Origin: Fibrobacteria bacterium
GTDB lineage: Bacteria; Fibrobacterota; Fibrobacteria; UBA11236
Assembly: GCA_025360005.1 (NCBI GenBank)
Contig: JANYDA010000062.1
Location: 1-52,603 of the forward strand
DNA: 52,603 nt
Reading direction: 5' to 3'
The notes below the pieces were generated by a model that searched no databases, was not told the origin of the DNA, and saw only the letters and a program-made list of their open reading frames with translations. A program made the translations under genes and the position numbers. Of this stretch, positions 10,533 through 42,004 are shown one piece after another; the first letter of the stretch is position 1; each line of letters begins with the position of its first letter.

Positions 10533-12365
10533 TCAACGCATCACCAATAGAAGCCTGAGCGGATCCTCATTCAGCCGGTAATAGTAGACTCCCGCTTTTA
10601 CAAGCTGCTTGCCGGCATCCATCAGATCCCAAGTCAGCACCTGCTCGGCCGAAGGGAAATCCAGGCCGACGACTTCCCGTCCGTCCTCCCCGTAAATCCG
10701 CACCCGGGACGGGAAGACCATGCTTTTGGCCTGGGAGAAGTAGAGGACGGCACCGGTTTGCGCGCGCACCGGATTGGGGAATGCGTAGAACACGGCGTCC
10801 GCTTCCTTGATTTCCACGGCGGCCTTTTCCGTAAAGGACGGGTTGGGCAGCACCAGATAATATTCGCCGTAGCCGGAATGCGGCGCCGCCAGGGGGAATT
10901 GGGTTTCCCGGAGATGTTCCACCTCGAAGCCCGCGGCATCCGCGTGGATGCGGGTGATGCCGGAGGCCACCTTGGCCTGTAGGATCCGGGTAGCGGGAGC
11001 GTTACCCCATTTCACCTTCAGGATGCCGAAAGTAAGGGCGGGGAGCGTCACCACCTTGTGCGGGTTGCTTCCGCTCATGTCGATGGAATCCATGGACACG
11101 TTCGGCCAACGGTCCATGTCCGGAGAGAACAGCCCGTCCGGCATCTTGAAACGGTTCCCGCTGAAAAAGAGCTGGGAAACGTAGTCCGGGTAGAGGCTTG
11201 CCATGGTACGGCCGTATTTTCCGAAAGCGGTTTCCAATCCGTCCTGCAGCGCGTCCCCGTTGCGGCGCAACTGCTCCCATACGCGTACGTCGAAAGCGGA
11301 ATCCAGGGCTTTGCTCAGGTATTGATGGAAGATGCTGTGTCCGTACATTGGGTAATGCGTGCAGGGGCCCTGCAACAGAGAGTTGAGCGGCACCTGGTTG
11401 TGGTAGTTGAGCACGCAGGGCAGGTATTGCAGGTAATCGTCCACCTCGCCCGCATTGCGCTCTTCCATGCCCGTGGCGGAAAGCTCGTACCATGCATGGT
11501 ATGTCACCACCCGCGGTATGTAGGTGAATTGCACGGCGTGGTAGAACTCGTGGAAGGCCGTCACCTTGATGCCCAGCTCCCATTCGCGGGAATAATCATG
11601 GATGACCTTGCCTGCGAGCCTGCTGGCGATGGGATCCCCGACGATGTTCCCATTGTCATCCAACTTGGTGCGGCAGAGGAAATCATTTTCAAAGGTGATG
11701 GAAAGCTGCGGGGGAGGGTAGGTGATGCCGTAGGTTTCGCCTGCGTAGAGATTGTCCGCCGTGCCTATGTCCACTATGTCCACGGGGAACTTATTGCTGA
11801 GGGAGGCGGGTACCTGGTACTGCACGGAACGCACGGATGAGACGGGCGCCAGCATCCCCAGCCTATCCACGTAGTAGGCGCGCGCGGCTTCGAAATACTG
11901 CGCGGTTTTCCGGATGTAGACCGGATGCGCCAGATGGGCCGAGTCGAGGCGGGCGTAGGCGGCCGAGTCGCGTTGGGGATCGGCCATGTCCTTGAACGCG
12001 GCGAAAAGCGAGTCCGCCGTCCGGACCAGGGTGGAATCCTCCGGTTCGGTATGCACGCGGTGCAGTCCGCGCAGGGAGTAGTGGAACAGGAAGTGATCCG
12101 TTTCCAGGGTGCGGGCCCGGTTGGCCGGCTCGCCCGCGGCCACCCGCAAGGCGCCTTGGGCCGCCGTCGCCGATTGCCTATGCTTTTCAAAGTAGATGGC
12201 CGTTCCGCATTGGCCCGCTTGCGTCCGGCCCGCTGCGGCCAGAATGAGGCCCAGCATGGCTCTCCGGATCACCGGCCACTGCGGGCGGGGGAAGGCGCGG
12301 ATGAAGGCGATGCGCCCGCTATTCAAGCCGCCACCCGGAGCCCGGTCCATCGAATCCCAATGCAT
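10533..12365 (-). CDS. exported zinc-metalloprotease-like protein with C-terminal sorting-type Ig domain
   Basis: Predicted secreted protein of up to 610 residues. The central region carries HEFYHAVQF, an HExxH zinc motif, followed by WYELSATGMEER, where a downstream Glu could be the third ligand. This arrangement resembles the MXAN_6640-type putative metalloproteases. The C-terminus (AFPNPVRAQTG, then VRIYGEDGREV, then AGVYYYRL) looks like the FlgD-Ig/T9SS type A sorting domains of FCB bacteria. The start is uncertain: beginning at ATG 12365 puts about 30 residues before the hydrophobic segment, while GTG 12272 gives a compact signal peptide (MLGLILAAAGRTQA core). Substrate unknown. Confidence 0.85.
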   Translation of the reverse strand: MHWDSMDRAPGGGLNSGRIAFIRAFPRPQWPVIRRAMLGLILAAAGRTQAGQCGTAIYFEKHRQSATAAQGALRVAAGEPANRARTLETDHFLFHYSLRGLHRVHTEPEDSTLVRTADSLFAAFKDMADPQRDSAAYARLDSAHLAHPVYIRKTAQYFEAARAYYVDRLGMLAPVSSVRSVQYQVPASLSNKFPVDIVDIGTADNLYAGETYGITYPPPQLSITFENDFLCRTKLDDNGNIVGDPIASRLAGKVIHDYSREWELGIKVTAFHEFYHAVQFTYIPRVVTYHAWYELSATGMEERNAGEVDDYLQYLPCVLNYHNQVPLNSLLQGPCTHYPMYGHSIFHQYLSKALDSAFDVRVWEQLRRNGDALQDGLETAFGKYGRTMASLYPDYVSQLFFSGNRFKMPDGLFSPDMDRWPNVSMDSIDMSGSNPHKVVTLPALTFGILKVKWGNAPATRILQAKVASGITRIHADAAGFEVEHLRETQFPLAAPHSGYGEYYLVLPNPSFTEKAAVEIKEADAVFYAFPNPVRAQTGAVLYFSQAKSMVFPSRVRIYGEDGREVVGLDFPSAEQVLTWDLMDAGKQLVKAGVYYYRLNEDPLRLLLVMR

Positions 12366-17334: not shown

Positions 17335-19155
17335 CTAGGATTTCCCGCCCGGAGCGGCGACCTTCATTTCCGGATCGATTCCGTTCAGGTAGATATGCTG
17401 CCGATCGGCGGAATAGTTGAGGAACTTGTAGTAGAGTTTCCCGCCCACCAGATCGCTCCCGCGGATGGCGACCTCGTCCACGCCCGCGAAGGATTGGTAG
17501 CGGATGATGGACCCCTGGGGATCGAAGATCACGATCATATTGGCGGGCAGGTTCATGGTGGATTCGCCGCGGTTGCTCCCCACCGCGCGCTTGCGATGCG
17601 CGTCCACCACCAGGTCCACGTAGCTGAATTCGCGATCATGGGCTTCCTTGTCGCGGCCCCTGTCCGGAATCCATTGCACGGATCGGCCCGCGCTCCAGCG
17701 GTTGGGCACTAGGTAGGACAGGAAGCTGTAGTACGTGCTGAAGGATCCCAGCGCCACCTCCGCCACGAAATTCTCCAAATCCCCTTGGCTGGTGCGGCCT
17801 GCCGGCGAGGCGTAGGTATAGGCGCTCTGGTTGGAGCGTTCCTGCAGGGACATCTTGGAGAAATCCACCTGCCCTTCTTCCACCGAGAATTTCTGCGCCA
17901 GCGATAAGGTGTCGTTGAACAGCGCTTTGTCCACCTTGAGCTTGTTCACCCCGGAACGGACATAGCTGGTCTTGAGGAATCCGGATTTGGTCCCCAGCGC
18001 CTTCTTGGAGTCGTCGTCCAGCTCCACGGTGGTTTCGCTCTTGAAGGTGAAGGTCCGCAGCGCGGTCAGGGTTTGCTTGAATTTCTCCCGTTGCTCCTTC
18101 TCCATGCGCTGTTGCTCTTCCTTCAGGGCGTCCATGCGGTCGCGCTCCTTGCGATCCTCATCGGCTTTGGCCAATTGCTGGCTCTGCTGGTTGCGGGCCA
18201 ACGAACCGGCCTCTTGCAGGCGTTCCCGCAACGATGAGGCCAAGGCTTTCCACAAGACGATGCGCTCCTGAATGGGAGCCAAGGTGGATTGGTTCCTCTC
18301 CTTCAGGGAGGCTTCGATCCTGTCCTCCACGTCCATGGTGAAGTCCACCTTCTGCTTACGGGCGTACTCAAGCAGGTCGCTGAAGAGGAAATCCGTATTG
18401 AGGCCTTCCAACAAGCTTTCCAAATCCTGCTTGAGCCACCCCTTGTTCTCCTCGAACTTGCGGGAAAGCTGCTGCAACTGTTCCTGGGTCTGGGCGGCGT
18501 TGGCCTGCAATTGCCGGTTCCAATAATCCAGCTGCAGGGAATAGTCATCGTAGAGCGATTCGATCTTGGCCAGATTATGGGTGCGCAAGTGCTCTTCCAC
18601 GCGGCGGCCCAGGAAGTCCTGCGCGAACGCGTAGAGCCAGGCCGATTGCAGGGCGGTGAAATCCCGATCGATACCGGCCACCGTGGCCTGGAAGTTCAGC
18701 TTGGGCTTTAGGCTCCCGGCTTCGTAAGGCATGAGCGCGCGTTGGAAGGAGAGCTTGGCGTCGGCATCCCAACGCTTTCCGTTCCGGAAAAAAACGCCGT
18801 CGATGCGGGCCACCAGGTTGGAGACGTAGAGTTCCTGGATCAGTTTGTCGGTATCGGCGCGGTGCCGGAGCAGGTCCTGGACGTCCTTTCCCACCGGATC
18901 CAGCTGCGCATAGGCCCCGCGGTCGAAGTTGCCGCCGGAAAATCCCGATCCGGATCGGAGCCGATCGAGTGCTGCGCGGCATTGGGCCGCCTGTTTCTCC
19001 CAATCGGAAAAGGGATATTTCTGGTTCACCTGTTTCAGGTAATCCTTGAGATAGGCCTTGGCCTGGACCAAATCCCCGTCCCCTTCCGCATGCGCGGGGA
19101 TGGTGGAAACCAATATCAGCCCTAGGCTCAGGGCCGGCCAGAAATTTGCTTTCAT
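17335..19155 (-). CDS. exported coiled-coil protein of unknown function
   Basis: Not recognised. From ATG 19155 it encodes 606 residues with a clear signal peptide (about 1-23, ending IPAHA). The middle (about 200-375) is long charged helix, with a strong coiled coil rich in Arg/Glu/Gln/Lys around 330-375. The C-terminal third is more beta-like. The in-frame ATG at 19206 adds 17 residues before the signal peptide and is less likely. A TTGACC-N17-CAAAAT promoter lies just upstream. No membrane anchor or sorting domain is seen, so the periplasm is the probable location. Confidence 0.8.
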   Translation of the reverse strand: MKANFWPALSLGLILVSTIPAHAEGDGDLVQAKAYLKDYLKQVNQKYPFSDWEKQAAQCRAALDRLRSGSGFSGGNFDRGAYAQLDPVGKDVQDLLRHRADTDKLIQELYVSNLVARIDGVFFRNGKRWDADAKLSFQRALMPYEAGSLKPKLNFQATVAGIDRDFTALQSAWLYAFAQDFLGRRVEEHLRTHNLAKIESLYDDYSLQLDYWNRQLQANAAQTQEQLQQLSRKFEENKGWLKQDLESLLEGLNTDFLFSDLLEYARKQKVDFTMDVEDRIEASLKERNQSTLAPIQERIVLWKALASSLRERLQEAGSLARNQQSQQLAKADEDRKERDRMDALKEEQQRMEKEQREKFKQTLTALRTFTFKSETTVELDDDSKKALGTKSGFLKTSYVRSGVNKLKVDKALFNDTLSLAQKFSVEEGQVDFSKMSLQERSNQSAYTYASPAGRTSQGDLENFVAEVALGSFSTYYSFLSYLVPNRWSAGRSVQWIPDRGRDKEAHDREFSYVDLVVDAHRKRAVGSNRGESTMNLPANMIVIFDPQGSIIRYQSFAGVDEVAIRGSDLVGGKLYYKFLNYSADRQHIYLNGIDPEMKVAAPGGKS

Positions 19156-19170
19156 GATGTTGGAACTCTG

Positions 19171-19199
19171 ATTTTGTCCTAAAATGACGCCGCGGTCAA
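19171..19199 (-). promoter_or_regulatory. putative sigma70-type promoter of the coiled-coil protein gene
   Basis: On the minus strand, TTGACC (19194-19199), 17 nt, then CAAAAT (19171-19176), with the ATG 16 nt further on. The -35 is near consensus and the -10 is moderate. Confidence 0.45.
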
Positions 19200-19375
19200 T
19201 CCTCATCCACCGAGAGGAAATGTACCATCGCCAAGCATGGGATGCTGTGGGAGCTTGGGAAACTGGGAGCGCAAACGGGGAGCCATGGCCCCGTCGGCAG
19301 AGGTCGGCCCTTTCCGGTAAGCTTAAGCGCGTTGTGATGGAATCCCGGGCGGAAACGTTCCGCCAGGAATGGGGA

Positions 19376-22300
19376 TCAATTGGAGAGCGCTATTTTCCGG
19401 GTGAGGCGGGTATTGATGCCGGCGCCCTGCACTTCCAGGCTTAAGAAGTACATGCCGGGGGCCAGGCGGGCGTTCCGCTTGCGGAAATCGGTGTCCCAGG
19501 AGAAACGGTAGAATCCTTGCGAAAGCGGGCCCATGGCCAATTCGCCTTTGCGGGTTCCATCGATGCCCCAGAGTACGGCCCGGAAGCGGGCCTTGGACGG
19601 CAAGGACATTTGCATCGCGAATCCGCCGTTGCGCGCGGAAACGCGCATGTCCAAGGACGCGGCGGCCACGGCCATGATCTTGAGGGGGCCGAATTTGGCC
19701 AGGTTTTCTTTGCTTCCGGAATAGATGATCAAGGTGTCTTGCGCCAACCCGGAAGCGGGGATTTCCGCGCCGGCATCGACCTTGAATTTCATTCCCCGCG
19801 CCGGCGAGACGGCCCAGGTTTCAAATTCCGCTGGCAAGTCCTGGGCCAACACCTTGAGGGGCGGTAGCGAATCGCCGGTTCCGCCCAAGGCCACTTTCCA
19901 TTGCTGGATTCCGGAAGGCTTCATCCGGATCCAATCCGATGTCAGGGAGTGGCCGCCGCGTAATGCATGCATGAATAAACCGCTGTTCCGCTGAGGCAGG
20001 GAGAATTCATCCTCGATCCCCAAGTCGTCGGCGGAAGTCCAATCGGCACCCAGATGCAAGGTGCGGGCGGCGCCCCAGCCCATGGAGAGGCTGATGCCGC
20101 TTTCCGCGCCGGTTTTCTTCATCGCCAGCACGGTGACGGGGTGCTGGAACAGGGTGATGGTGGTGTCCTGGAGGTAGTTGTATACGTAATAGCCCCGCCA
20201 GGGTTTCATGGATTCCGATTCCACATAGTTCACGATGGCAGGGGAATATTCCCATAGGCCTTTGACGGCGAAGGTCTTGTACGCGTCGCCCAGGTTGCGT
20301 GAGGATGGCCAGTAGAGCTCTTCCAGATGGGGATTGCCTATCTGGTTCCAGCCGTGGTGCAAGTCTACCGTGAAGGCCACGGAGCCGCGGCCGCTGGTAT
20401 TTGCGGACGGCAATGAAAGGGACGTGACCGGTAAATGCGAGCCGATCCAATACCCCTTGCCGGGCAACAGGGCCGTGGAGGCATCCAAGCGAAGGTAGGT
20501 GGTGTCCGAATTATAGTCCCAGCCCGCGCCTTCGATACCGGCGCCTGGATTTGCGCTCTGCAAGTCCTTCAAGGTAAGGGGAGGATTCAGTGCCAGGGGA
20601 ACGCTGATCAAATCGTACGGGGACCCCTTGGTGCCGATGCCCCAAGCGGGAGGCCCTCTGAGCGGCCCCAATCTTTGGGATAAGGACAGCATGGCGGTGG
20701 GATCGGGAGGGAAGAAGGCGGCCTGCTGGTAATCGCTCACCACCACCTGGACGTAGAGCGGTTTCAGAGTGCCGGTGGGATGTTTCAATTTGACCGAGAG
20801 ATCGACGCCGCTGGAAATAAATACGCCGCTCACGTTACGGGCAGGATCATCGTTGCGCTTCAGATCGTAGGACAGGTTGGCGATATTGTCCGTGATATGG
20901 AAGTTGACGCGGGTGGAGTCCCCCTCGAAAGTCTCGTTGAGGTAGGTGATGACGGGCGGAGCGATATCGATCCCCATGAAGTAGACGCCTGCCTGGATCA
21001 GCGTGACCGTATCGGCGCTGGATACGAAGTAGATCTTCCCGGAAGGATCGATCTTGTACATGGAGCGCTTATCGGAATTGGAACTGGTAAAGGTGACGGT
21101 GGGAAATTCCGCCCCAGTGAAGGCTTCGGTGGAATCCAGGGCCAGGATGAAGGCGTATTGGACGCCATCGAAACCAACCAGGTGCAACGGCGCGGTATGG
21201 ATGGTGCGGAGTTCCACTTTGGAAGTCTGATCCTCCGGAACACGGACGGAATAGCCGCCAGGCAAGGGAGACGTCACTCCGGGCATAAGGGTTCTAACGA
21301 TGTCCCCGGTGATGGAATAGGTTTCCTCACGCACGGGACTCGCCTCATTGCCGGCAACGGCCACGGCTTTCAGAACGCTGCTGACCTGGATGGGGATGGA
21401 ATCTCCGGGAGCATAGGGAGTCCTGGAGTCCGGAGTGGGATCGGATCCGTCCAAGGTATAGAAGAGGGAGGCGCGTTTGGACGAGCAGGAAAGCTTGGCG
21501 TAAATCGTGGACGTGGAGATTCCGCCCGGGGGGGAGACGGTAGGCATGTCCGGAACCAAGGTAAAGGTGGAAACCAGCAGCCGGCTGTTCTCGAAACCCT
21601 TTTGCACGGCGATTACTTCCAGGGTGGTGGTGGTGTCCATGGGGATGGGCCCGGAATACTTGTCGCTTTTGACGGTCGGCTGCGTTCCATCCTTGGTGTA
21701 GTACAGAAGGGCGTCGGGGGTGGGAGGCGTCAACCATACCCGCAGGCTATCCTTGAAAGTGGTCTGGCCGGTGGAGGTGGTGATGGCGGGGGTGGCCAAC
21801 TGGGTTCCTTTCAACGTATATCCGAAGGAATATACCGCGCTGGAAACGCTGTCCAGGATGGCGATGGCGGAAATGGTGCCGGTCCCTCTCAGCGCAAGGC
21901 CATCAACAGGGAATACCGGCGAGTCCGAAGTGGGCGTTCCATCCACGATGTAATGGATTTCCGCATTGGCGGGTAAGGCAGAAAGCGTTACCGTAGTCAC
22001 GCTATCGAATACCCCCGGGGCCGGTTTGGCGCTGATTGGGCCGGGGATAAGCTTATAAGTCTCGGAAACGATATCGCTGTTGATGAAATTGGTGCGGGTG
22101 GCTACCACTTTGAGGGTGGTCGTCTTGGAGATGGAGATGGGTTTGCCCTGGTATAAGCTATGCGTGGAGGACGTATCCGGGGAGCTTCCGTCCAAAGTGT
22201 AGTAGATAGCGGCGGCCGTATCCGCTGGGCTGGAAAGGATCACGTAGGCCTGGCCGCTGAAAGTCCCTCCCGCGGGGGAAATCTTGGGGGCCAGCACCTT

Positions 22301-25300
22301 GCTGGGATTCTTTTCCAATATATAGGTCATCTGGAGCGTATCGCTGTCGATCATGCCCGTTACCTTGGCCACGGCGATGACGGTGGTGGTGCCCGTTATG
22401 GTAATGGGTGTTTTATTAAAGAGCCTGGGGGATCCCGTCAGGGGGTTGCTACCGTCGGTGGTGAAATAGATCCTGGCGCTGTCGGTCGCAGAGCTGAGAC
22501 TGAATGTCAACGTGTTCTGGAAGTTAGCCGTGGTTGGATTGATGACGGGTTTGATGACTTTATCCTTTACCGTCAAGGTGTAGGTTTCAGTCGTGACATC
22601 GCTGGCTTGGTATCCCGTCTTGAATGCCCTGGCCTTAAGGACCGTGGTGGCGGTGATGGGAATGACATCCCCGGGATTATACAGCTGAGTGCTTGTCCGG
22701 GTCGGCGTCGCCCCGGTCAAGGTGTAGTAGATATCGGCTCCGGAAGGATTGGGGTTCAGCGTGACTTTGGTATCCGGAAAGAACGGGCCGCCGGCAGGCG
22801 TCGCCACCGGCTTGGTGAGTTTCGGCAGTTCAACCACGAGTTTGGCCGAGTCACTGAAGGCGAACGTGGACGGATCGTTGTCGACGGTGTAGGAATTGGT
22901 GACGCGAAGCCGGTAAAAGCCGCTGTCTGCCAGCGCGGCGGCCGCGATGGTGAATATGGAGTCGTCCGGCTTCGGGGCGGTAGTAACAGCGATGTTACCC
23001 TTGTACCATTGGTACATGAGCTTCGGTTCGCCCGTAGCCGAGGAGATGAAGGTCACCATTTCGCCTACCACGGCTTTGCCGCCTACGGGCTGGGTGCTGA
23101 TCCGGATGGGCAAGGGCAAGGGTTTGATGATAAGGTGGCGCACCTTGCTGGTCACGTCCGGTCCGACGCCATTCTTGACGATCACCCGGTAATAGCCCGC
23201 GGAAGAAGAAGAAACGGGATCGATGGTATAGGTGGCCGCATTGGGCCCGGTATTGGTATAGATTCCGGTGGCTTTCGGGTTGTATTGCCATTGGTAGGTG
23301 ACGGCCGGGAATCCGGACGCGGAAACCTTGAATGTCACCTTGGACTTGTCGAACACCGTGATACCCGTGTCCAGGTCCAGGTTTATCCTGGGATCCGCGT
23401 TGATGGTGATGGCTAGCACCTTGGTGTCCTTGCCATATGCGTTGGTGGCGGTGAGGGTAACGCTGAAGGTACCCGAGGCGGTGGGTGAGCCGGTGATGAC
23501 GGATCCGGAAAGGGAAAGCCCGGCGGGCAAGGCAGTGGTGGCGAAAGCAATGGGGGATGTCCCCGTGCTGGTGATGGAGTAGGCGAATGCGGTTCCTGTC
23601 TTGCCGGTTTTCGAGACAGCGCTGGTAATGGCCGGCTTTACGGTGGAATCGCTGATGGAGATGCTCAAGGTGGCGGTATCGCTGCCTTGGGTGTTGGTCG
23701 CCGTCAGCTTGATGGAGTAATTGCCTTTTGCGGGCGGCTTGCCCGTCAACGATCCCGTGCCGCCGGGACCGGGAGTCAAGGTGAGCCAGGCCGGACCGGC
23801 GGAAGCGGAAAAGACGGGGGCAGGATTTCCGTTGGCGGAAACGGAATATTGAAACGGTATGTTCACGGTTCCGGATGCGGGAGTCAAGGTTGCGATGTTG
23901 GGAGGCGCAGGGGCCAGCACTATGGTAAGGACAAACGTGGCGGTGTCGGTGCCTTGGGTATTTTTGGCGGTAAAGAGAATCGGAAACTGGCCCGCGGTAG
24001 GCGGGTTGCCTCCGGGGGGTGAGGATAAGACCCCGGAGTTGAAGGTCAACCAGGCCGGAAGTGCGCTTCCATTGGGACCGCCGGCGCTCACCACGGGCGC
24101 GGGGTTTCCTGTAACGGTAAGCGAAGCACTGAACGGTTGTCCGGTGATCCCTTGCTGGGAAGAAAGGCTCTTGATATTCGGGGCGGTAAGGGCCGCTCCA
24201 ATATTAATCGTCACCGGTTTGGTCGCTGTACCCGATACGCTCGTCGCTGTGAAAGTAACGGGGAAGGACCCGGCCACCGTAGGGGTCCCGGTAATCGTTC
24301 CGTTGGTGTTGAGAACCAGACCACCCGGCAACCCGGAAGCGGCCAGTGCCGGGGCCGGGTACCCCGTGGTGGTGACAGTGTAGAATGGGGCCGTTAAGGC
24401 GGTGCCTACATTCCCCGAGGGAATGGTTCCGCTGGTTTTGATGCCTGGCGGCTGGTTGATGATGATGTTCAGGGATGCGGAATCGCTGCCCTGGCTGTTT
24501 GTGGCTTTCACCGATACTACGGTGGAGCCACCCGCCGTGGGCGTGCCGGATATCTGCCCAGGTCCGGTGACATTGATTGACAGTCCTGGTGGAAGACCGG
24601 TTGCCGTAAAGGTGGGAGCGGGATTGCCCGTAGCGGTCACCTGAAAATTAAAGGGAACTGTTACCGCGCCCGAAGGGGGCTGACCGCTGGTGATGACAGG
24701 AGTAGCCACCGGATCTTTGATGGTAATGGTGAGGGTCTTGGGATCCGTCCCCACGGTGTTAGCGGCCGACAGGGCCACGGAGTAGGTGCCAGCCAGGGTG
24801 GGAGTGCCGGAGAGGATGCCTCCGCTGAATGACAGCCAGCCCGGGAGCGGCCCCCCGTTGAGCCCGGTTGCAGATAACGTGGGCTGCGGAAATCCAGAGG
24901 CGGTCATGGTATAGGTAAAGGCCGCATTGGTGAGTCCGGATTTACTGCTCGCGCTGGTGATGGCGGGCGGCTGATTGATGTTGATAGTCAGGGGTTTTGT
25001 ATCGCTGCCTTGGCTGTTCGTGGCTTTCACGGATACCACGGTGGATCCGCCCGTCGTGGGTGTGCCGCTTATCAGCCCGGCGGTACTGATCGAAAGTCCT
25101 GCTGGAAGACCGGTTGCCGTAAAGGTGGGGGCGGGATTGCCCGTAGCTGTTGCCTGAAAACTAAAGACTGTAGCCACCGCGCCAGTTGTCGTTTGGGCGC
25201 TGGTGAGGACGGGGATGGTCAATGCGTCGCTGATGGTAATGGTGAGGGTCTTGGAATCCGTTCCCACGCTGTTGCCGGCCGACAAGGCCACGGAGTAGGT

Positions 25301-26422
25301 GCCCGCCAGGGTGGGAGTGCCGGAGAGAGCGCCTCCGCTGAACGACAGCCAGCCCGGGAGCGGCGCCCCGTTGAGCCCGGTGGCCGAGAGTGCGGGCAGG
25401 GGAAATCCGGAGGCGGTCAAGGCATAAGTGAAGGCCGCATTGGTCAGCCCGGACTTGCTGTCCGCGCTGGTGATGGCCGGTTTGGCATTGACGCTTACGG
25501 ATATCTGATTTATCGAGGAAAGCGGCGGGGATCCTTGGTCGGTCACTTTCAGACTTATGTTGTAAACGCCCTGTCCGGAAAAAGTAGCGGTGGGATTGAC
25601 GGTATTCGCGCCGGTGAAACTGACGCCGGCGGGTCCGCTCCATTGGTACTTGAGCGTGGTCCCGGCGGGATCATCCGGATCGGAGGACGCGGAACCGTCG
25701 AGGGCGACCGTGTTGTTGGGCAATACGATGGCCGTGTCCGCGCCCGCGTGGGCTACCGGGGGCTGGTTGGCCGCGATGCTGAGGGTAACATTGTCGCTAC
25801 CGGTAAGACCTCTTCCGTCCATGGCGATGGCGCGGATGGTGTTGGTTCCGGACGCGGTTCCGTCGGGAATGATTCGATCGAATTTGTAAGTGGGACCGGC
25901 TCCATCGCCGAGGAAGGTGAGGCCGCCGGAGCCAACCAGATAATATTTCACCGTGACTGGATCCGGACCATCGTTGTCGGTAACCGAAGCGGTCATGGAG
26001 ACGGTGCCGCCGGTATGGTAGATCTGTCCGGCGGAAGGGGTGAGGAAGTTGACAACCGGCGCCGCATCCAGGTTGTACTGCCAAGTGGAAACGTCGCTCG
26101 TTCCCAAGTCGCCATAATCAGCCATGGCGCGCAAAGTGGTGGTTGCGGAAATTACGATCGGTCCATTCGCAGGGTCGTATTTTTGGGCCTGGGCAATCTT
26201 GAATTTATTCGAGTTGCTATTGGTATCGAAATAGATGGCCACAAGCGATGGGTCTGTCCCGGGAACGGAAAGGGTGACCAACAAAGGGTTCACGAAAGGA
26301 TTGACCGATGGGGGATCCTGATCGCTGACGGGTGGCTGCAATAGTCCCAGCGGAGGCTGTGCATTTGCCATGGGAATCAGAAGCAGCAGAAGTGCGATAA
26401 AGAATGTCAGTTGTTTTTTCAA
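19376..26422 (-). CDS. giant exported multi-domain protein (PKD, putative-Ig and chitobiase-C-like repeats)
   Basis: A 2348-residue surface or secreted protein. It has a signal peptide (1-21), a chitobiase-C-like domain, an Ig-like domain, a PKD domain (about 220-310) and eight putative-Ig (He_PIG-like) repeats of 80-90 residues (about 310-1010). Two Ig-like domains and six chitobiase/hexosaminidase C-terminal-like repeats with the YYTxDGSxP signature follow. From about 1707 to the end it has a C-terminal region homologous to that of the neighbouring giant protein (26673-30455), ending in a sorting-like tail (LAPGMYFLSLE). No catalytic domain is recognised, so adhesion, polysaccharide binding or a structural role is likely (inference). 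The start codon is TTG, placed directly before MKKQLTFF-type signal sequence, with a weak Shine-Dalgarno. Confidence 0.9.
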   Translation of the reverse strand: MKKQLTFFIALLLLLIPMANAQPPLGLLQPPVSDQDPPSVNPFVNPLLVTLSVPGTDPSLVAIYFDTNSNSNKFKIAQAQKYDPANGPIVISATTTLRAMADYGDLGTSDVSTWQYNLDAAPVVNFLTPSAGQIYHTGGTVSMTASVTDNDGPDPVTVKYYLVGSGGLTFLGDGAGPTYKFDRIIPDGTASGTNTIRAIAMDGRGLTGSDNVTLSIAANQPPVAHAGADTAIVLPNNTVALDGSASSDPDDPAGTTLKYQWSGPAGVSFTGANTVNPTATFSGQGVYNISLKVTDQGSPPLSSINQISVSVNAKPAITSADSKSGLTNAAFTYALTASGFPLPALSATGLNGAPLPGWLSFSGGALSGTPTLAGTYSVALSAGNSVGTDSKTLTITISDALTIPVLTSAQTTTGAVATVFSFQATATGNPAPTFTATGLPAGLSISTAGLISGTPTTGGSTVVSVKATNSQGSDTKPLTININQPPAITSASSKSGLTNAAFTYTMTASGFPQPTLSATGLNGGPLPGWLSFSGGILSGTPTLAGTYSVALSAANTVGTDPKTLTITIKDPVATPVITSGQPPSGAVTVPFNFQVTATGNPAPTFTATGLPPGLSINVTGPGQISGTPTAGGSTVVSVKATNSQGSDSASLNIIINQPPGIKTSGTIPSGNVGTALTAPFYTVTTTGYPAPALAASGLPGGLVLNTNGTITGTPTVAGSFPVTFTATSVSGTATKPVTINIGAALTAPNIKSLSSQQGITGQPFSASLTVTGNPAPVVSAGGPNGSALPAWLTFNSGVLSSPPGGNPPTAGQFPILFTAKNTQGTDTATFVLTIVLAPAPPNIATLTPASGTVNIPFQYSVSANGNPAPVFSASAGPAWLTLTPGPGGTGSLTGKPPAKGNYSIKLTATNTQGSDTATLSISISDSTVKPAITSAVSKTGKTGTAFAYSITSTGTSPIAFATTALPAGLSLSGSVITGSPTASGTFSVTLTATNAYGKDTKVLAITINADPRINLDLDTGITVFDKSKVTFKVSASGFPAVTYQWQYNPKATGIYTNTGPNAATYTIDPVSSSSAGYYRVIVKNGVGPDVTSKVRHLIIKPLPLPIRISTQPVGGKAVVGEMVTFISSATGEPKLMYQWYKGNIAVTTAPKPDDSIFTIAAAALADSGFYRLRVTNSYTVDNDPSTFAFSDSAKLVVELPKLTKPVATPAGGPFFPDTKVTLNPNPSGADIYYTLTGATPTRTSTQLYNPGDVIPITATTVLKARAFKTGYQASDVTTETYTLTVKDKVIKPVINPTTANFQNTLTFSLSSATDSARIYFTTDGSNPLTGSPRLFNKTPITITGTTTVIAVAKVTGMIDSDTLQMTYILEKNPSKVLAPKISPAGGTFSGQAYVILSSPADTAAAIYYTLDGSSPDTSSTHSLYQGKPISISKTTTLKVVATRTNFINSDIVSETYKLIPGPISAKPAPGVFDSVTTVTLSALPANAEIHYIVDGTPTSDSPVFPVDGLALRGTGTISAIAILDSVSSAVYSFGYTLKGTQLATPAITTSTGQTTFKDSLRVWLTPPTPDALLYYTKDGTQPTVKSDKYSGPIPMDTTTTLEVIAVQKGFENSRLLVSTFTLVPDMPTVSPPGGISTSTIYAKLSCSSKRASLFYTLDGSDPTPDSRTPYAPGDSIPIQVSSVLKAVAVAGNEASPVREETYSITGDIVRTLMPGVTSPLPGGYSVRVPEDQTSKVELRTIHTAPLHLVGFDGVQYAFILALDSTEAFTGAEFPTVTFTSSNSDKRSMYKIDPSGKIYFVSSADTVTLIQAGVYFMGIDIAPPVITYLNETFEGDSTRVNFHITDNIANLSYDLKRNDDPARNVSGVFISSGVDLSVKLKHPTGTLKPLYVQVVVSDYQQAAFFPPDPTAMLSLSQRLGPLRGPPAWGIGTKGSPYDLISVPLALNPPLTLKDLQSANPGAGIEGAGWDYNSDTTYLRLDASTALLPGKGYWIGSHLPVTSLSLPSANTSGRGSVAFTVDLHHGWNQIGNPHLEELYWPSSRNLGDAYKTFAVKGLWEYSPAIVNYVESESMKPWRGYYVYNYLQDTTITLFQHPVTVLAMKKTGAESGISLSMGWGAARTLHLGADWTSADDLGIEDEFSLPQRNSGLFMHALRGGHSLTSDWIRMKPSGIQQWKVALGGTGDSLPPLKVLAQDLPAEFETWAVSPARGMKFKVDAGAEIPASGLAQDTLIIYSGSKENLAKFGPLKIMAVAAASLDMRVSARNGGFAMQMSLPSKARFRAVLWGIDGTRKGELAMGPLSQGFYRFSWDTDFRKRNARLAPGMYFLSLEVQGAGINTRLTRKIALSN
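24455..25490 (-). repeat. 513-bp in-frame tandem duplication of a repeat pair
   Basis: Inside the giant gene, a unit encoding two putative-Ig repeats is present twice in tandem. Matching landmarks lie 513 bp apart (for example AGTAGGTGC at 24781 and 25294), which equals 171 codons, so the frame is kept. The copies are very similar at DNA level, suggesting recent duplication; the other repeats in the gene are more diverged. Confidence 0.75.
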
Positions 26423-26672
26423 AAGCCCGATTTTCAGTTAAGGATAGATACCAGGATTTCACCACCGGCATTAGACGTACCAACACCTGACGGGGTACCG
26501 TTTATTTTCCGAATCCCAAATAAAAGCGCGAAATGACGAACCCAAATATAGCTGAATCTCATCCGCTTCCCCATCCCACCAGAGGTCCAGACAGTCAAAC
26601 TAGGCTTTTGAAAGGAGGGTTGGGAGAGATTCTGTTCCCGGAATCGGCCTTAGCCGTTGGGCTTTTTTGAGG

Positions 26673-29600
26673 TTACCACAACACTTTTTGCGAGAAAACC
26701 TGCAATCCTTTTTCGGTTTTCAGCCGCAATCGCAGGAAACCGATTTGCGATTGCGATCCGACGGCCATAGGCAAGTGGTAGATTCCCTGATTCAACATTC
26801 CCGGCCGCGAAGCCCCCAGCAGGCGTCCCGCCGGCGACCATACGCTTGCATCCACCTCGGCTGGCCAGGGCAAAGCTAATTGGAGCGTTCCGCCGTTCCT
26901 GCTCCGTTCCAGCTTAAAAGACAGTTCCCCGACATAGGCGGCCGCTTTGGCGAAAGCGGAGAGGCCGGAGAGCTTATCCAAGGGACCTGCGTATACCGAA
27001 AGGGTGTCTCCCGCCAATGCGGACAACGGCATTTCCATTCCCGTTTCCAACTGGAATTTCATGCCGCGCAGGCTGGAAACGGCCCAGGCTTGGTAACCGG
27101 CCGGTAACGTACCCGCCAAGACGCGGAACGTTCCGGAAGCGGAGACTTCCTTCGCGAGGGCGCCATCCTTGCCGATCACCACGTCCCAGCGCAAAGGCAT
27201 ACCGGCCGTGTAGTGGACGATGTCCGTGAGCAAACGGCCATGGCCCCGTTGCGCCCATGCGGGGAATCCGCGCGCCAAACCGGGCAGCACCGGTTCGTCT
27301 TCCGCTCCCATCCCATCCTGAGCGTCCGTTTGCGCGCCCAGGTTCAAGGGAACGGCGCGCCCAATGTCCAGATTCAGGTCCACCGAACGGGCGGTTCCCT
27401 CCACCCATCCCGTAGCCGCCTTTGGCACGGGGCGCAGGGCTGGGTCGGTGACAAGCGTGATAATCGTATCGCGATTCGATTTGCTGAAATAGTTGACGAA
27501 ATATCCCCGCCAGGGTTCCAGGGAATCCGAATGCACATAGTCATCCGTCTCCGGAAGGTAGCGGAACGGGGCCTTGAGCAAGGTGCCGGACAATTTGCTC
27601 GCGGCGGTGCTCACCGGCCAGTAGACTTTGTCAAGAGAGGGGCTGGTGATCTGGTTCCAACCGGGATGCAGCAGCATCCGGTAGGTGCCGTCGGTCCCCG
27701 ATGGCCCTGTCCGGAAAGTGCTCAGGATGACGTTCGCCACCGGAACACGGCTGCCCAGCCAAATCGCCTTTCCGGGCGTAATAATGCTGCTGTCATTGAG
27801 GTAAAGATATACCCCATTCGATTCGCTCCAGACTGCTGCATCCAGATTGTCTTCCGGATTATCGAGGCGCAGTTGGTTCCAATGGATGGGGACGGCCTCT
27901 CCGGTGGGGAAGCCCACCATGTCCCAGGATGAGTTCTTTCGCCCCAGGGAAATTACCGAGGGCGTATTGAGGCGGTTCCACAACTGGGAGAGATACACCT
28001 TTCCGGTAGCCTCCTTCGGCAACCGGCCGGTATTGAAGAAATCCCCCGCCGAGGCGCGGAACCAAAGCCCGCGCAGCTCCGTCCCGCTTATCTTGAGCGG
28101 CACCGATATTTCCCCGTTGCCATCCGGCTTATAGGTCCCGCGATCCCCGCTCAGCCCGGGGCTTTGGATTTCGCATGTCACATTGCTCACGTTATCCTTG
28201 ACCGAGAGCCTCAACTGGGTGGCGTCCCCGGCCTTGGGCACTTCCGAAAGCAAGGTGATGACGGGAGGCATGGTATCCACTCCCAGGAAATAATCCCCTG
28301 CCACGGTCAAATCCTTCTGGCTGTCCGAGGTGATGAATTCCACCAGGCCGTTGGCGTACCGGTAAAGGCCCAAGTTCGCATCGACGGGTTTGGTGAGGGT
28401 TACCTTGAAGACCTGCCCGGATTGCGCCGGTTGCAATTGTACGGCCAGGGAAACGTCCCGGAATCCGATCAGATTGAAGGCATCCGTGGTATGCGTCTTG
28501 GCGATGATGGGAAGGCTGGATTGATTGGTGAAGGCGAAACCGCCAGACAGCGACCGCGTGGAGCCGGGCGCCAAAGTGTCCGAGGGAGTGCTGGTGTATA
28601 TCTGGTAGTTCACGTCCAAGAGGCTGCTGGAGAGGGTGACTCCGCCGATGGCCAGGGTGGTCCACGCTTTCAGCCGCGTAGTGGACGTTAGCAGGATGGG
28701 CTTGCTGTCCGAATAGACGACGGCTTCCGTGAGGGGCGCATCGGCAAGGGTGTAATTGATGATGCCAATCTTTGTTCGCGTACTCAGGGTCACCAGCACG
28801 CTGTTGGCGTACGGTAGCGTGGCCGCCGGGCTGGCGGTGGGCTGGGAAGGAAGCAACCCGTAGCGTTCTTCACGGATCACGCTGGGTTCCTTGCCGCCGG
28901 CGAGGGGAAACGATTGCGCTCTGACCACGGTGGATGATTCCAGATGGAGGGGAATGCCGTCGAACTTGGGGCTGGCAAGGGAGGGGTCGCTCCCATCCGT
29001 GGTGTAATGGATCTCCGCATCCGTTTCGGGCGTATGCATGGTCAAGCTTATGCTATCCTCGAAGTCCCGCGTAGCGGGCTCGATGATGGGTGCGGCGAAT
29101 TTTTTGATGACGGCTTTTTTGCTATAGGTGGCCGTAGCCACCGAACTTTGGATTCCGTCCTTTACGGCGATGGCCTTAAGCACGGTCGAATCAATCCCCT
29201 GGATGGTGATCACCCCGCTCGAATCCAGCGGGAAACCGGTTTTAAGAGTGGGATCGGTTCCGTCCAGGGTGTACAGGATCGCAGCCTTAGGGGACTTGGC
29301 TTTAAGCTGAACCTTAAGGGAGTCGACGAATTGCTGGGAAGGCTTGTCGATGTCCGGCGGCGTCAGGCGTAACGTGTATGATACTGAGAGGACGGCGCTG
29401 TAAGGCTGGGGAGGATTGTAGGCTCGCGCTTTCAGGGTCGCCGAGGTGGTAAGTAAGATGGGTTGGGATCCATCCGCAGAATTTTCCGTGAGCGGCGAAT
29501 TGTCCAGTACATAGTGGATGCTCGCTCCATCGGTGCTGCCGAGGAATACCGTTGCCGAATCGTAGAAGATACCGGCCGGTCTGGAAATGAGCGGCGTGGC

Positions 29601-30455
29601 GACGGCGGGAAGATAGACGTACTTTTCCGTAAGGACAGCGCTGGGAGTGGAGCCGGTTTTGAACGCCCGGCAGCGCACGGTAACCGTATCTCCGATTTTC
29701 CCCCCGACGATGGACAGGGAGTCGCCGGAAAGTAAGGCCGCCGTGGTGTCCAATGTTTTTTTGGTGCTGTTGAGAGAGTAGCGGAAGTACGCTCCGGGTG
29801 CTGATACGAAATGGATTGTCAATGTGTTTGTGGGGAAGCTTTCGCTCTTGGGAGTGGCGACCGGCGTTGCCAGCGGTGGCAGCAAGGTGAATGCGGCTTG
29901 CATGGGATCGCTGTCATCGTAGCCGGGAGCCGTGGCGTACGCTTTTACGGTGGTGGATTTGGCGATGGGGAGGGGACCACTATAAACGGGACTGTTGGAG
30001 CCAGGGTCGGTTCCATCCAGGGTGTAATAGATGGTGGCTTCAGAGGCGGGTTTGGCTACTGTCAAGGTGCATATGACGGAGGGGTAGAAATCCGCTTTGC
30101 CGCCCGTGTTTGCCTGGGGAGCGGAAACCTTGGCGCGGGTGAACACGCCGGTTACCACTTCGCTGGCGAAGCCGGCGAGATAGTGGACGGCATTCACGGT
30201 GGTAGTCTGGTAGAAGACCAGTACGCTTCCCTCCTGATACTGGAGGCTTTTGTTGGTAGGGAACGTTCCATCCACGGTATAAAAGATCCTGCCATTGTTG
30301 ACCTTGTGGAAGGATACGGAGGTTGACCCTACGAAATCATTGATGCCCGCGGGTACCATGACGGGCGACGGCACCAGCCCCACGGCTTGGGCCGAAGCGG
30401 AATGTGAAGCGAAAGCCAAAAACAGCAGTCCGAAAGCGCAATGGTTACGCATCAT
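26673..30455 (-). CDS. giant exported protein with seven chitobiase-C-like repeats
   Basis: From ATG 30455, 1260 residues: a signal peptide (about 1-23, FASHSASAQ), seven chitobiase/hexosaminidase C-terminal-like repeats (about 25-620; examples IFYTVDGTFP, IYYTLDGTDP, IHYTTDGSDP), then a C-terminal region of about 635 residues homologous to that of the 2348-residue neighbour. Shared blocks include HPGWNQI, YWP, PWRGY and RGMKF. AGGAA lies a few bases before the tandem ATGs at 30455 and 30452, which supports this start; the open frame reaches 30626. No enzyme domain was seen. Probably a cell-surface or secreted carbohydrate- or protein-binding protein, and a tandem paralogue of the neighbouring gene. 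Confidence 0.9.
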   Translation of the reverse strand: MMRNHCAFGLLFLAFASHSASAQAVGLVPSPVMVPAGINDFVGSTSVSFHKVNNGRIFYTVDGTFPTNKSLQYQEGSVLVFYQTTTVNAVHYLAGFASEVVTGVFTRAKVSAPQANTGGKADFYPSVICTLTVAKPASEATIYYTLDGTDPGSNSPVYSGPLPIAKSTTVKAYATAPGYDDSDPMQAAFTLLPPLATPVATPKSESFPTNTLTIHFVSAPGAYFRYSLNSTKKTLDTTAALLSGDSLSIVGGKIGDTVTVRCRAFKTGSTPSAVLTEKYVYLPAVATPLISRPAGIFYDSATVFLGSTDGASIHYVLDNSPLTENSADGSQPILLTTSATLKARAYNPPQPYSAVLSVSYTLRLTPPDIDKPSQQFVDSLKVQLKAKSPKAAILYTLDGTDPTLKTGFPLDSSGVITIQGIDSTVLKAIAVKDGIQSSVATATYSKKAVIKKFAAPIIEPATRDFEDSISLTMHTPETDAEIHYTTDGSDPSLASPKFDGIPLHLESSTVVRAQSFPLAGGKEPSVIREERYGLLPSQPTASPAATLPYANSVLVTLSTRTKIGIINYTLADAPLTEAVVYSDSKPILLTSTTRLKAWTTLAIGGVTLSSSLLDVNYQIYTSTPSDTLAPGSTRSLSGGFAFTNQSSLPIIAKTHTTDAFNLIGFRDVSLAVQLQPAQSGQVFKVTLTKPVDANLGLYRYANGLVEFITSDSQKDLTVAGDYFLGVDTMPPVITLLSEVPKAGDATQLRLSVKDNVSNVTCEIQSPGLSGDRGTYKPDGNGEISVPLKISGTELRGLWFRASAGDFFNTGRLPKEATGKVYLSQLWNRLNTPSVISLGRKNSSWDMVGFPTGEAVPIHWNQLRLDNPEDNLDAAVWSESNGVYLYLNDSSIITPGKAIWLGSRVPVANVILSTFRTGPSGTDGTYRMLLHPGWNQITSPSLDKVYWPVSTAASKLSGTLLKAPFRYLPETDDYVHSDSLEPWRGYFVNYFSKSNRDTIITLVTDPALRPVPKAATGWVEGTARSVDLNLDIGRAVPLNLGAQTDAQDGMGAEDEPVLPGLARGFPAWAQRGHGRLLTDIVHYTAGMPLRWDVVIGKDGALAKEVSASGTFRVLAGTLPAGYQAWAVSSLRGMKFQLETGMEMPLSALAGDTLSVYAGPLDKLSGLSAFAKAAAYVGELSFKLERSRNGGTLQLALPWPAEVDASVWSPAGRLLGASRPGMLNQGIYHLPMAVGSQSQIGFLRLRLKTEKGLQVFSQKVLW

Positions 30456-38646: not shown

Positions 38647-40122
38647 TCATTCCGCCCAGGCCAGGGATCGCTTGACCGCTTTATGCCAGCGATCCACCAG
38701 CAGCTTGCGCCGCGCAGCCGCCATGGCGGGCTTGAAGATGTGCAGGCGCAGGTCCAGCTTGAGCAGATCCTGCTGCGAGGCCACCAGGCCGCAACCCAAG
38801 GCCGCCAACATCGCCACGCCCAGGGCGGTGACTTCCGGGCTATCGTTGACTCGCACTTCCGTCCCGGTGATGTCCGCCTGGAATTGCATTAAGAGGCGAT
38901 TGGCGCTGGCGCCGCCGTCAACGTTCAGGGACTTGATGGCGCCGCCGAAGGCATGGCACAGGTCCAGGCTCTGGAAGGCGATCGATTCCAGCGCGGCCCG
39001 CGCCAGGTGGGCGCGCGTGGTCCCGCGCGTTAGGCCTATGATGAGGCCGCGCGCGTTGGGATCCCAGTGGGGCGTCCCCAAACCCGCGAAAGCGGGAACG
39101 AAGTAGACGCCTTCATTGTCCGGCAGCGCGGCCGCCATGGCTTCCGAGTCTTCCGCACGGTCCAGGATCTTCAGGCCGTCGCGCAGGAATTGCACCACTG
39201 CGCCGCCGATCATCACCGCGCCTTCGTGCGCATAAGTGGTTTTGCCCTTAAGGGTCCAGGCCACCGTGCCCAGCAGGCCTTTGCGAGGAGCGGCATATGC
39301 GGCCCCGGCGTTCCGCAACAGAAAGCAACCGGTCCCATAGGTGTTCTTGAGGGAACCGGCCTTGAAACATCTATGCCCGAACAGGGAGGCTTGCTGATCG
39401 CCGGCCACGCCGTGGATGCGCACGCCTTCCAGGCCGGGCACTACGGCTTCCCCGAAGTCCGCATCGGAAGGCAGGATTTGCGGCAGGGTCCCGGCGGGAA
39501 CTCCGAATAGCTTTAACAGGCTTTTGTCCCAGGCCAGCGTCTTCAGGTCCATCAGCAGGGTCCGCGAAGCGTTGCCGACCTCGGTAACATGCCGGTTTCC
39601 CCCGGTCAGTTTCCAGATGAGCCAACTGTCGATGGTGCCGAAGGCCAGGCGCTTTTCCGCCGCGGCCTTGCGCACGTCCGGGTTGTGCTTGAGAAGCCAA
39701 TGCATTTTACTTCCGGAGAAATAAGGATCGAGCACCAGTCCGGTTTTGCGCCGCACGCCCGCTTCCGCGCCCTTGCGCTGCAAGGCCCGGCAGAAGGCCG
39801 CCGTGCGCCTGTCCTGCCACACGATGGCCGGCGCCAAGGGCTTGCCCGTAAATTTGTCCCAGGCCACCACGGTTTCGCGCTGGTTGGTGATGCCCAAGGC
39901 GGCCACGGCTTCCGCCTTCACGCCGTTGCGTTCCATCAGTTCGCGGAGCGTTCCCCATTGGGACTCCCAGATTTCCCCGGCGTCGTGTTCCACCCATCCC
40001 GGCTGCGGGAAATACTGGGTGAATTCTCTTTGCGCCTGATCGATCTTGTGCAAGCGGGAATCGTAGAGGACGGAGCGGGAACTGGTGGTGCCCTGATCCA
40101 GGGCGATGATGACTTTTTCCAT
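38647..40122 (-). CDS. glpK: glycerol kinase
   Basis: Phosphorylates glycerol to glycerol 3-phosphate. From ATG 40122 it has 491 residues, normal for GlpK. Motifs are DQGTTSSRSVLYD at the N-terminus, GITNQRET, VWQDRRT, GDQQASLFGHRCF, YGTGCF, PAFAGLGTPHWDPNARG and NVDGGASANRLLMQFQAD. GGAGA lies 5-9 nt before the ATG. The longer frame to 40935 overlaps hemJ and tyrS and is a shadow. No glycerol facilitator or glpD is in the window. Confidence 0.97.
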   Translation of the reverse strand: MEKVIIALDQGTTSSRSVLYDSRLHKIDQAQREFTQYFPQPGWVEHDAGEIWESQWGTLRELMERNGVKAEAVAALGITNQRETVVAWDKFTGKPLAPAIVWQDRRTAAFCRALQRKGAEAGVRRKTGLVLDPYFSGSKMHWLLKHNPDVRKAAAEKRLAFGTIDSWLIWKLTGGNRHVTEVGNASRTLLMDLKTLAWDKSLLKLFGVPAGTLPQILPSDADFGEAVVPGLEGVRIHGVAGDQQASLFGHRCFKAGSLKNTYGTGCFLLRNAGAAYAAPRKGLLGTVAWTLKGKTTYAHEGAVMIGGAVVQFLRDGLKILDRAEDSEAMAAALPDNEGVYFVPAFAGLGTPHWDPNARGLIIGLTRGTTRAHLARAALESIAFQSLDLCHAFGGAIKSLNVDGGASANRLLMQFQADITGTEVRVNDSPEVTALGVAMLAALGCGLVASQQDLLKLDLRLHIFKPAMAAARRKLLVDRWHKAVKRSLAWAE

Positions 40123-40172
40123 GCGTCTCCTCAGTCTCGATAAAGGAAGAACGGGAATGCGCCGGAACGGAC

Positions 40173-40703
40173 TCAGTTCTTTTTGCGGCGCAGCATCTTC
40201 ATCGCGGCCACCGATACGGCCGCGAATGCGGCCACGCCCAGCATGCCTTTGCCGGCGGCCGAGGGGCTTTTCAGCACGGCAGTGAAGACGATGGCGAACA
40301 GGAGCAAGGTGGCCCCTTCGTTCCAGACGCGCAATTGCACCGAAGTGAGCGCGCAGCGGCCCGCCAGCAGGTCCTTGCGGATCTTCCCACAGTAGAGATG
40401 ATAGCCGATCAGCAGCAGCAGGAACACCGCCTTGAGCTGGAACCAGGCCGCCTCCCAAGCGCGGATGCGAACCATCATATAGAGGCCGCAGCCGGCGGCG
40501 ATGATCATGGCCGGCCAGGTGATGGCGTACCAGAGGCGCTTTTCCATCAGGGCGAATTGGGCCGTCAGGATGGAACGATCCGGTTCCGGCCGCGCCAGCG
40601 CTTCCACGTGGTAGATGAACAGGCGCACGATATAAAGCAATCCGGCGAACCAACTGACCACGAATACCAAGTGCAAGGCTTTGATGTAGAGGTATGCGTC
40701 CAT
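40173..40703 (-). CDS. hemJ: protoporphyrinogen IX oxidase, HemJ type
   Basis: A 176-residue membrane protein with four or five hydrophobic segments. It matches HemJ (formerly UPF0093): KALHLVFVVSWFAGL with His11, LMEKRLWYAITWPAM, then QLKAVFLLLLIGYHLYCG with Lys91, and NEGATLLLFAIV. His and Lys of this pattern are the residues known to matter in HemJ. It oxidises protoporphyrinogen IX in haem synthesis. Transcribed ahead of glpK with a 50-nt gap and divergent from tyrS. Confidence 0.9.
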   Translation of the reverse strand: MDAYLYIKALHLVFVVSWFAGLLYIVRLFIYHVEALARPEPDRSILTAQFALMEKRLWYAITWPAMIIAAGCGLYMMVRIRAWEAAWFQLKAVFLLLLIGYHLYCGKIRKDLLAGRCALTSVQLRVWNEGATLLLFAIVFTAVLKSPSAAGKGMLGVAAFAAVSVAAMKMLRRKKN

Positions 40704-40743
40704 GGCTTGCCTTAAAGGTACTTTTTTTAACTTTGGGCAAAGC

Positions 40744-40764
40744 CGGCGCCTCTATGGGGCGCCG
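40744..40764. promoter_or_regulatory. inverted repeat in the hemJ-tyrS divergent gap
   Basis: CGGCGCC (40744-40750) and GGCGCCG (40758-40764) form a perfect 7-bp stem with a 7-nt loop, 47 nt before the tyrS start. It could be a leader hairpin or an operator. No T-box features (such as the AGGGTGG-type antiterminator) were seen. Confidence 0.35.
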
Positions 40765-40810
40765 TCCGCGCCGTAAGCGCAGCGTCCGATTCGGGCGCCG
40801 GAAGGAACGA

Positions 40811-42004
40811 ATGTCGGATACCGCAGCCTGGAAAACCATCGCCCGGGGCGTCCTGGAAATCATCGAAGCGGATGATCTCCGCAAGAAGCTTTCCAAGGGA
40901 ACCCCTCTCAACATCAAGCTGGGCATCGATCCCACTTCGCCGGATGTTCATTTGGGATTCACCGTTGTCATGCGGAAGCTCCGCCAATTCCAGGATCTGG
41001 GCCATCGCGTCATCCTCATCGTTGGGGACTATACCGCAACGGTGGGCGATCCTTCCGGCAAGAACAAGACACGCCCCATCCTGACCCATGAGGACGTGCT
41101 CAAGAACGCCGAGACCTACAAGCAGCAATTCTTCAAGATAGTGGATCCGGCCAAGACCTCCGTGATCTATAACGGCGAGTGGTTTTCCAAGCTCACCTTC
41201 ACCGAGGTGACCAAACTGATGTCCCAGATCACCGTGGCGCAAATGCTTGAGCGCGAGGATTTCCAGAAGCGCTATCGCGGCGGCCAGCCCATCAGCCTGC
41301 ATGAATTCCTGTACCCGATGATGCAGGCCTACGATTCCGTGATGATAGACGCGGACGTTGAGCTGGGCGGCATGGATCAGAAGTTCAACGTCCTGCGCGG
41401 CCGCGAATTGCAACGGAGCCTGGGCAAAGAACCCCAGGTGGGGCTTTTCATGCCCATCCTGCTGGGGACGGACGGCAAGGAGAAGATGAGCAAGAGCCTG
41501 GGCAATTATATCGGCGTGAACGAGGCGCCTCAGGCCATGTTCCATAAGATATACGCCCTGCCCGATGCCTTGGTGGAAAGCTATTTCCAATTGCTCACGG
41601 ACATCCCGCTGGAATCCATTCAGGCCAAGCTGGCCCAGGTGGCGGCGGGGACCCTCAACCCCAACGCCCTGAAGGAAGAGCTGGCGCGCGATATCGTCAG
41701 GCAATACCACGGCGCGGATGCGGCCGAGATGGCGGCCATCCAGGAAAAGCGCATCCATGCGGGCGAAGCCTTGCCGGAAAACATCCCCGTCTTCGCCGTA
41801 CCCGCCGGCGAGCATTGGCTGCCGGAATTGATCGTCAAGGCCGGCATGGCCAAGAGCAACGGCGAGGCCCGGCGCTTGATCGAAAACGGAGGCGTGTCTT
41901 TCGACGACGCGAAGATCGGAGATCCCAAGGCCAAGGCCATGGTCAGCGGCAGGCATCTGTTGAAATGCGGGAAACGGAACTTCGCCAGGATCGAAGCGGA
42001 GTAA
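40811..42004 (+). CDS. tyrS: tyrosyl-tRNA synthetase
   Basis: Charges tRNA-Tyr. From ATG 40811 it has 397 residues. The class I HIGH motif is VHLGF (HLG at 47-49) after GIDPTSPD, KMSKS is at 225-229, and a C-terminal S4 domain (LPELIVKAGMAKSNGEARRLIENGG) is present. This order fits the shorter TyrZ/type 2 bacterial TyrRS. AAGGA lies 5 nt before the ATG. The gene is convergent with the rplS operon and ends before a bidirectional terminator. Confidence 0.97.
   Translation: MSDTAAWKTIARGVLEIIEADDLRKKLSKGTPLNIKLGIDPTSPDVHLGFTVVMRKLRQFQDLGHRVILIVGDYTATVGDPSGKNKTRPILTHEDVLKNAETYKQQFFKIVDPAKTSVIYNGEWFSKLTFTEVTKLMSQITVAQMLEREDFQKRYRGGQPISLHEFLYPMMQAYDSVMIDADVELGGMDQKFNVLRGRELQRSLGKEPQVGLFMPILLGTDGKEKMSKSLGNYIGVNEAPQAMFHKIYALPDALVESYFQLLTDIPLESIQAKLAQVAAGTLNPNALKEELARDIVRQYHGADAAEMAAIQEKRIHAGEALPENIPVFAVPAGEHWLPELIVKAGMAKSNGEARRLIENGGVSFDDAKIGDPKAKAMVSGRHLLKCGKRNFARIEAE

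Follow-up and report, generated by a model that had tools for sequence, protein, structure and literature searches.

A shared C-terminal module with a tandem conserved core and a tail resembling T9SS sorting domains in two putative giant exported proteins of a Fibrobacteria bacterium

Among described systems, the closest to what is considered here are the C-terminal sorting domains of T9SS cargo. In P. gingivalis a loop glycine and a beta-7 lysine are reported to be conserved in them, within motifs that were shown to matter (PMC11285876). For Fibrobacter succinogenes a basic terminal domain has been proposed to be both T9SS signal and surface anchor (PMC6851124). A further point of reference is the Ig-like domain of FlgD (PF13860). 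How do the tails of two giant proteins from a Fibrobacteria bacterium compare with these? They are like the T9SS type A sorting domain (TIGR04183/PF18962) in C-terminal place, Ig-like fold, loop glycine, near-end lysine and basic character, but unlike it they do not open with PNPF, and the family models do not detect them. They may be likened to the F. succinogenes basic terminal domain/Fpm-1, as a basic C-terminal domain in the same phylum, though that domain is on lignocellulose enzymes (PMC6851124). With the FlgD domain the similarity is one of profile and fold; however, FlgD is part of flagellar hook assembly, whereas the tails considered here end giant, putatively exported proteins.

The window, i.e., the whole stretch of 52,603 nucleotides analysed (GCA_025360005.1, contig JANYDA010000062.1), has the genes for these two proteins adjacent on its minus strand, both reading frames being open as the preliminary description had stated, with a third gene of conserved position beyond them.

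17335..19206, minus strand: P0003, 623 aa, immediately follows P0001 on the strand they share in 6/6 genus genomes
19376..26422, minus strand: P0001, putative giant exported protein, 2348 aa, TTG start; PKD/He_PIG/Ig/CHB_HEX_C_1, then the shared module
26673..30455, minus strand: P0002, putative giant exported protein, 1260 aa, ATG start; CHB_HEX_C_1/Fn3_assoc repeats, then the shared module

The N-termini of P0001 and P0002 were judged by eye to be signal-peptide-like (MKKQLTFFIALLLLLIPMANA; MMRNHCAFGLLFLAFASHSASA). The TTG from which P0001 is read has no evident ribosome site, so that the exact beginning of this protein is uncertain. Pfam and NCBIfam searches of both whole proteins labelled only the regions upstream of the shared module: PKD, He_PIG, Ig and CHB_HEX_C_1 in P0001, and CHB_HEX_C_1/Fn3_assoc repeats only in P0002, so the repeats preceding the module do differ, as had been noticed earlier. 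A DUF499_antiphage match on the P0002 repeats was far below cut-off and was judged spurious. P0003 has a signal-peptide-like start and a charged middle, probably coiled-coil, and matches no Pfam or NCBIfam model. Elsewhere in the window are, at its right end, a protein with RHS/YD repeats and an Rhs-associated core domain (50327-52477, plus strand), a putative metalloprotease like the MXAN_6640 family at a score below the curated cut-off (10533-12365, minus strand), and a reading frame (38647-40935, minus strand) whose match to glycerol kinase GlpK begins at residue 272, so that the true GlpK start is probably internal to the listed frame.

Is the likeness of the two C-termini real? The last 642 residues of P0001 (1707-2348) and the last 636 of P0002 (625-1260) align with 32% identity (198/617 columns) and 48% positives at a blastp E of 9e-82, and the Smith-Waterman score of module against module is 709, where 200 shuffles gave 43.7±6.3 with a maximum of 68, so that chance similarity is ruled out. 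Thus the proposal of a common module of ~640 residues is borne out, and the possible failure of the two regions to align significantly did not occur; the AGVYF/AGDYF, GWNQI, YWP, PWRGY and RGMKF blocks keep their order in the alignment of both proteins. The preliminary description knew no name for the module, and it has none in Pfam or NCBIfam; no published description of it was found in the open-access library searched.

19379..21292, minus strand: shared C-terminal module of P0001, 638 aa as aligned; AF2 model of the whole module with mean pLDDT 89.3
26676..28577, minus strand: shared C-terminal module of P0002, 634 aa as aligned
20678..21292, minus strand: N-terminal part of the P0001 module, boundaries approximate
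20129..20683, minus strand: tandem GWN core of P0001, two repeats, module residues ~204-388, pLDDT 93.2
27432..27992, minus strand: tandem GWN core of P0002
19664..20098, minus strand: third domain of the P0001 module, mainly beta, module residues ~399-543, boundaries approximate
19379..19663, minus strand: terminal Ig-like domain of P0001, module residues 544-638, pI ~11; putative diverged T9SS C-terminal domain
26676..26957, minus strand: terminal Ig-like domain of P0002, pI ~10.4; putative diverged T9SS C-terminal domain

From the AF2 model and the alignments the order of parts is an extension, an Ig-like stretch, two GWN domains, a beta-domain and a terminal Ig-like domain. In P0001 the extension, module residues ~1-104, is present in genus copies only, and the Ig-like stretch, ~105-205, has GIDxAPPVI and a conserved DN; distant relatives mostly match from hmm position ~105 onward. 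The third domain is predicted to be a beta-sandwich with an LGADxxSADDxGxEDExxxP motif (the ED/PP motif). A Foldseek search with the whole module gave beta-sandwich chains with TM on query of at most 0.14, which is not informative.

The name GWN was coined in this analysis after GWNxxxNP. In P0001 the repeats are YDLISVPL...PGKGYWIGS and GWNQIGNP...PWRGYYV, and the two halves align in register with P 1.9e-4, the best of 15 slice pairs, modest evidence which supports a possible origin of the pair by internal duplication. Its structure was predicted separately, from 106 sequences, to give the pLDDT listed above. No Pfam or NCBIfam model matches the core, a sequence search of PDB gave no credible match, and comparison of the model with PDB structures gave nothing at E<=0.001 and a best VIA Z of 2.6. 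It does not follow from this that the fold is new, and a new fold is not claimed. In the libraries searched just one entry matches the GWN pair at an E below 0.001, A0A8D9C8P8 of an uncultured marine phage (Foldseek E 1.1e-6, TM 0.59 on query, 16% identity), which is itself a predicted structure and whose label, ‘putative hemin binding protein’, is unproven.

The module is not confined to P0001 and P0002. A third copy is present on contig C31 of the same genome, five other genus genomes give 3-8 module matches each, and three more distant genomes of the class give weak ones; named close relatives with it are the Fibrobacteres/Fibrobacteria MAGs RYN_348, RYN_349, nzgw217 and Chersky_265. An iterated profile yielded 28 full-length genus copies, in reading frames of 934-2353 aa, and in every one of them the module is C-terminal. 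As to whether it always follows repeats, CHB_HEX_C_1 repeats are in 24 of the 28, with Ig_3 in 16, LamG in 7 and DUF2341 in 7. The P0001/P0002 pair is beside thiD and P0003 with the order kept in 6/6 genus genomes, and each paralogue forms one well-supported group across the six, so that the duplication predates the genus members and is not recent. Two irregular loci were met: a module split over two frames (L052 5788-10631), suggesting a frameshift or assembly error, and a partial second module copy at a contig end (L049 11353-12543).

Further afield, genome contigs were searched with a closer alignment (A2), as A1 was too diverse, and of 110 relatives found 80 loci were kept. They include relatives from KSB1, Calditrichota, Bacteroidota, Ignavibacteria, Latescibacterota, Krumholzibacteriota and Eisenbacteria; in these groups the profile mostly ends 20-38 aa before the stop codon and most copies finish in PNPF-type sorting domains. 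Such distant relatives carry the GWN pair, the beta-sandwich and the terminal Ig-like domain at near-constant distance from the stop codon. But since the A2 patterns and query include the tail, might copies placed elsewhere have escaped? A search with the core only, without the tail, gave matches in 9 of ten genomes, and in 28 of the 30 loci read the core match ends 246-273 aa before the stop codon, these 28 spanning Bacteroidota, Calditrichota, KSB1, Ignavibacterium, Armatimonadota, WS1 and Fibrobacterota of another family. The Armatimonadota/WS1 copies have the same order, with mostly 246-269 aa from core to stop. Recognition of the GWN pair, and of its fixed place across phyla, including bacteria in which SprA was not found, is new here. 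Two side observations are that DUF2271 (PF10029) matches 5/62 distant modules (alignment A3; best E 9.3e-6), and that a contig binned as uncultured Alphaproteobacteria (L138 6933-9305) has a module with a T9SS-type tail, in a bin where no SprA was found; mis-binning is possible.

For the distant modules the identity of the tail is direct: at E<=0.01 TIGR04183 matches 54/62 and PF18962 50/62. Neither matches the window proteins or their modules at E<1, and TIGR04183 matches just 3/33 members of A1, with none of the 28 genus copies among them as far as tail sequences show. However, profile against profile (hhalign), genus tails match distant tails at E 2.2e-14, where other module slices reach at best E 2.7e-4. 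A comparison with sorting domains fetched from genus TIGR04183 hits, E 2.8e-7, is rough and counts for little here, some reads of that set having been in the wrong frame. In an order-level relative (G010) module copies carry TIGR04183 or PorU-tail matches at their ends. The AF2 model of the terminal domain has seven strands between residues 548 and 636 in an Ig-like beta-sandwich, and compares with the PorU C-terminal domain (6za2) at Z 9.0, rmsd 3.1 over 91 aligned residues, a score tied with other Ig folds; folds of this Ig/Fn3 type are common, and equal or higher scores are reached by many beta-sandwiches that are unrelated. As to the motifs, the counterpart of the loop glycine, G43, is invariant in 28 genus tails (A5) and that of the beta-7 lysine is in both window tails (RKIALSN, QKVLW), the equivalence with P. 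gingivalis being by eye in both cases, and tail pI is 9.9-11.5 in 12 orthologues of the window pair. Run against the genome of the window, the tail profile picks up another 17 stretches, of which 13 have a stop codon within 16 aa; the other four are well inside long reading frames and may be other Ig-like domains. PF13860 has no match at E<1 in either window protein and matches 2/33 A1 members, and in a PDB sequence search with the A1 alignment the end matches FlgD, not sorting domains. Part of the module is thus already known, as in profile comparison its last ~95 residues match T9SS sorting domains and most distant copies match the type A model. The possibility that nothing but a known T9SS or Ig set was involved proved true of the tail and untrue of the tandem GWN core, which is without a Pfam, NCBIfam or solved-structure match.

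Does the organism have the machinery? SprA is present in 10/10 Fibrobacterota tested, including the genome of the window, where PorV is also above cut-off and a PorU-like reading frame scores 412.7 bits, just below the cut-off of 420. GldM matched in no genome searched, making that search uninformative. Among 26 genomes holding distant modules, SprA is in 14/16 of those outside Armatimonadota/WS1, the two lacking it being a 2.8-Mb Bacteroidetes MAG and the bin labelled Alphaproteobacteria, for which incompleteness or mis-sorting is possible. In Armatimonadota/WS1 it was found in 0/10, and since the PorV search in Armatimonadota matched nowhere and so is uninformative, absence of T9SS there is argued from SprA alone.

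What, then, is the module for? It is probably a C-terminal export and surface-presentation unit of T9SS cargo, with a conserved unnamed spacer or base. What speaks for this is homology, architecture, the GWN-to-stop distance, the relation of the tail to sorting domains, and the SprA, PorV and PorU-like genes; for the window proteins themselves, as the family models failed to match, T9SS membership is argued from remote homology, position, fold and gene content. It could instead be that in the genus the tail is now just a FlgD-like/Fn3-type structural domain whose role as a signal has been lost, the proteins taking another export route or being periplasmic. The failure of the T9SS models with the window tails even at E<1 and of TIGR04183 with the 28 genus copies, as far as their tail sequences show, the FlgD match of the A1 end and the commonness of the terminal fold would all suit such a loss, which is nevertheless unlikely given the hhalign link to T9SS tails, the strict C-terminal place, the conserved loop glycine and lysine with high pI, and T9SS genes in the genome. 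Nor need the core be a passive spacer: the aromatics conserved in GWN, PWRGY and YWP, and the LamG or DUF2341 domains of some genus copies, would befit binding of a ligand, e.g., polysaccharide, which is compatible with T9SS export. However, the best conserved G, P, W and N are found throughout both repeats, as they would be in the core of a fold, the place next to the terminal domains is constant while the heads vary, and there is no solved relative from which to assess a binding site; a binding role is rather unlikely.

The Armatimonadota raise a different issue, as they have the same architecture in genomes where SprA was not found, so that the spacer possibly does not belong to T9SS only. 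Is the ~440-residue unit of GWN pair, beta-domain and FlgD-like tail a general C-terminal surface unit, to which T9SS recognition was added, or from which it was lost, in one branch? Armatimonadota/WS1 keep order and spacing, and their seven tails tested are FlgD-like in look with 0/7 matching TIGR04183. But the prevalence of SprA in module-bearing genomes elsewhere, the lack of any other export machine identified, the possible incompleteness of metagenome-derived genomes where SprA is the single marker, and possible gene transfer of the unit make this a rather improbable account. With similar reserve one might regard GWN pair plus beta-domain as an uncatalogued surface unit across FCB phyla and Armatimonadota, served by T9SS in some and by another export route where SprA is lacking.

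To return to T9SS, we infer that the module is recognised, that the proteins are exported, cleaved and anchored, and that part of the module is a spacer, and for export, cleavage and anchoring the model is the P. gingivalis and F. succinogenes work (PMC11285876, PMC6851124). The proteins would reach the periplasm via a Sec signal peptide, the SprA/PorV translocon would recognise their basic terminal domain with its seven-stranded Ig-like fold, and the chain would then cross the outer membrane, after which a PorU-like sortase may cut off the tail and link the protein to a surface lipid. The GWN pair and beta-domain would be a folded conserved base or spacer ahead of the tail, holding the long variable array (CHB_HEX, PKD, Ig or LamG) off the membrane. 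To that extent the early surmise of a secretion or anchoring unit of a surface-protein family largely stands, as the tail does resemble T9SS sorting domains, though export and anchoring themselves are deduced.

The module ends very large proteins, is widely shared and has been left blank by the family libraries. Tails of the T9SS type can diverge until current models no longer detect them, and in phyla that have been little studied the module is a constant feature by which T9SS cargo could be traced. With the Armatimonadota copies, whose genomes gave no SprA, it becomes testable whether the unit needs T9SS.
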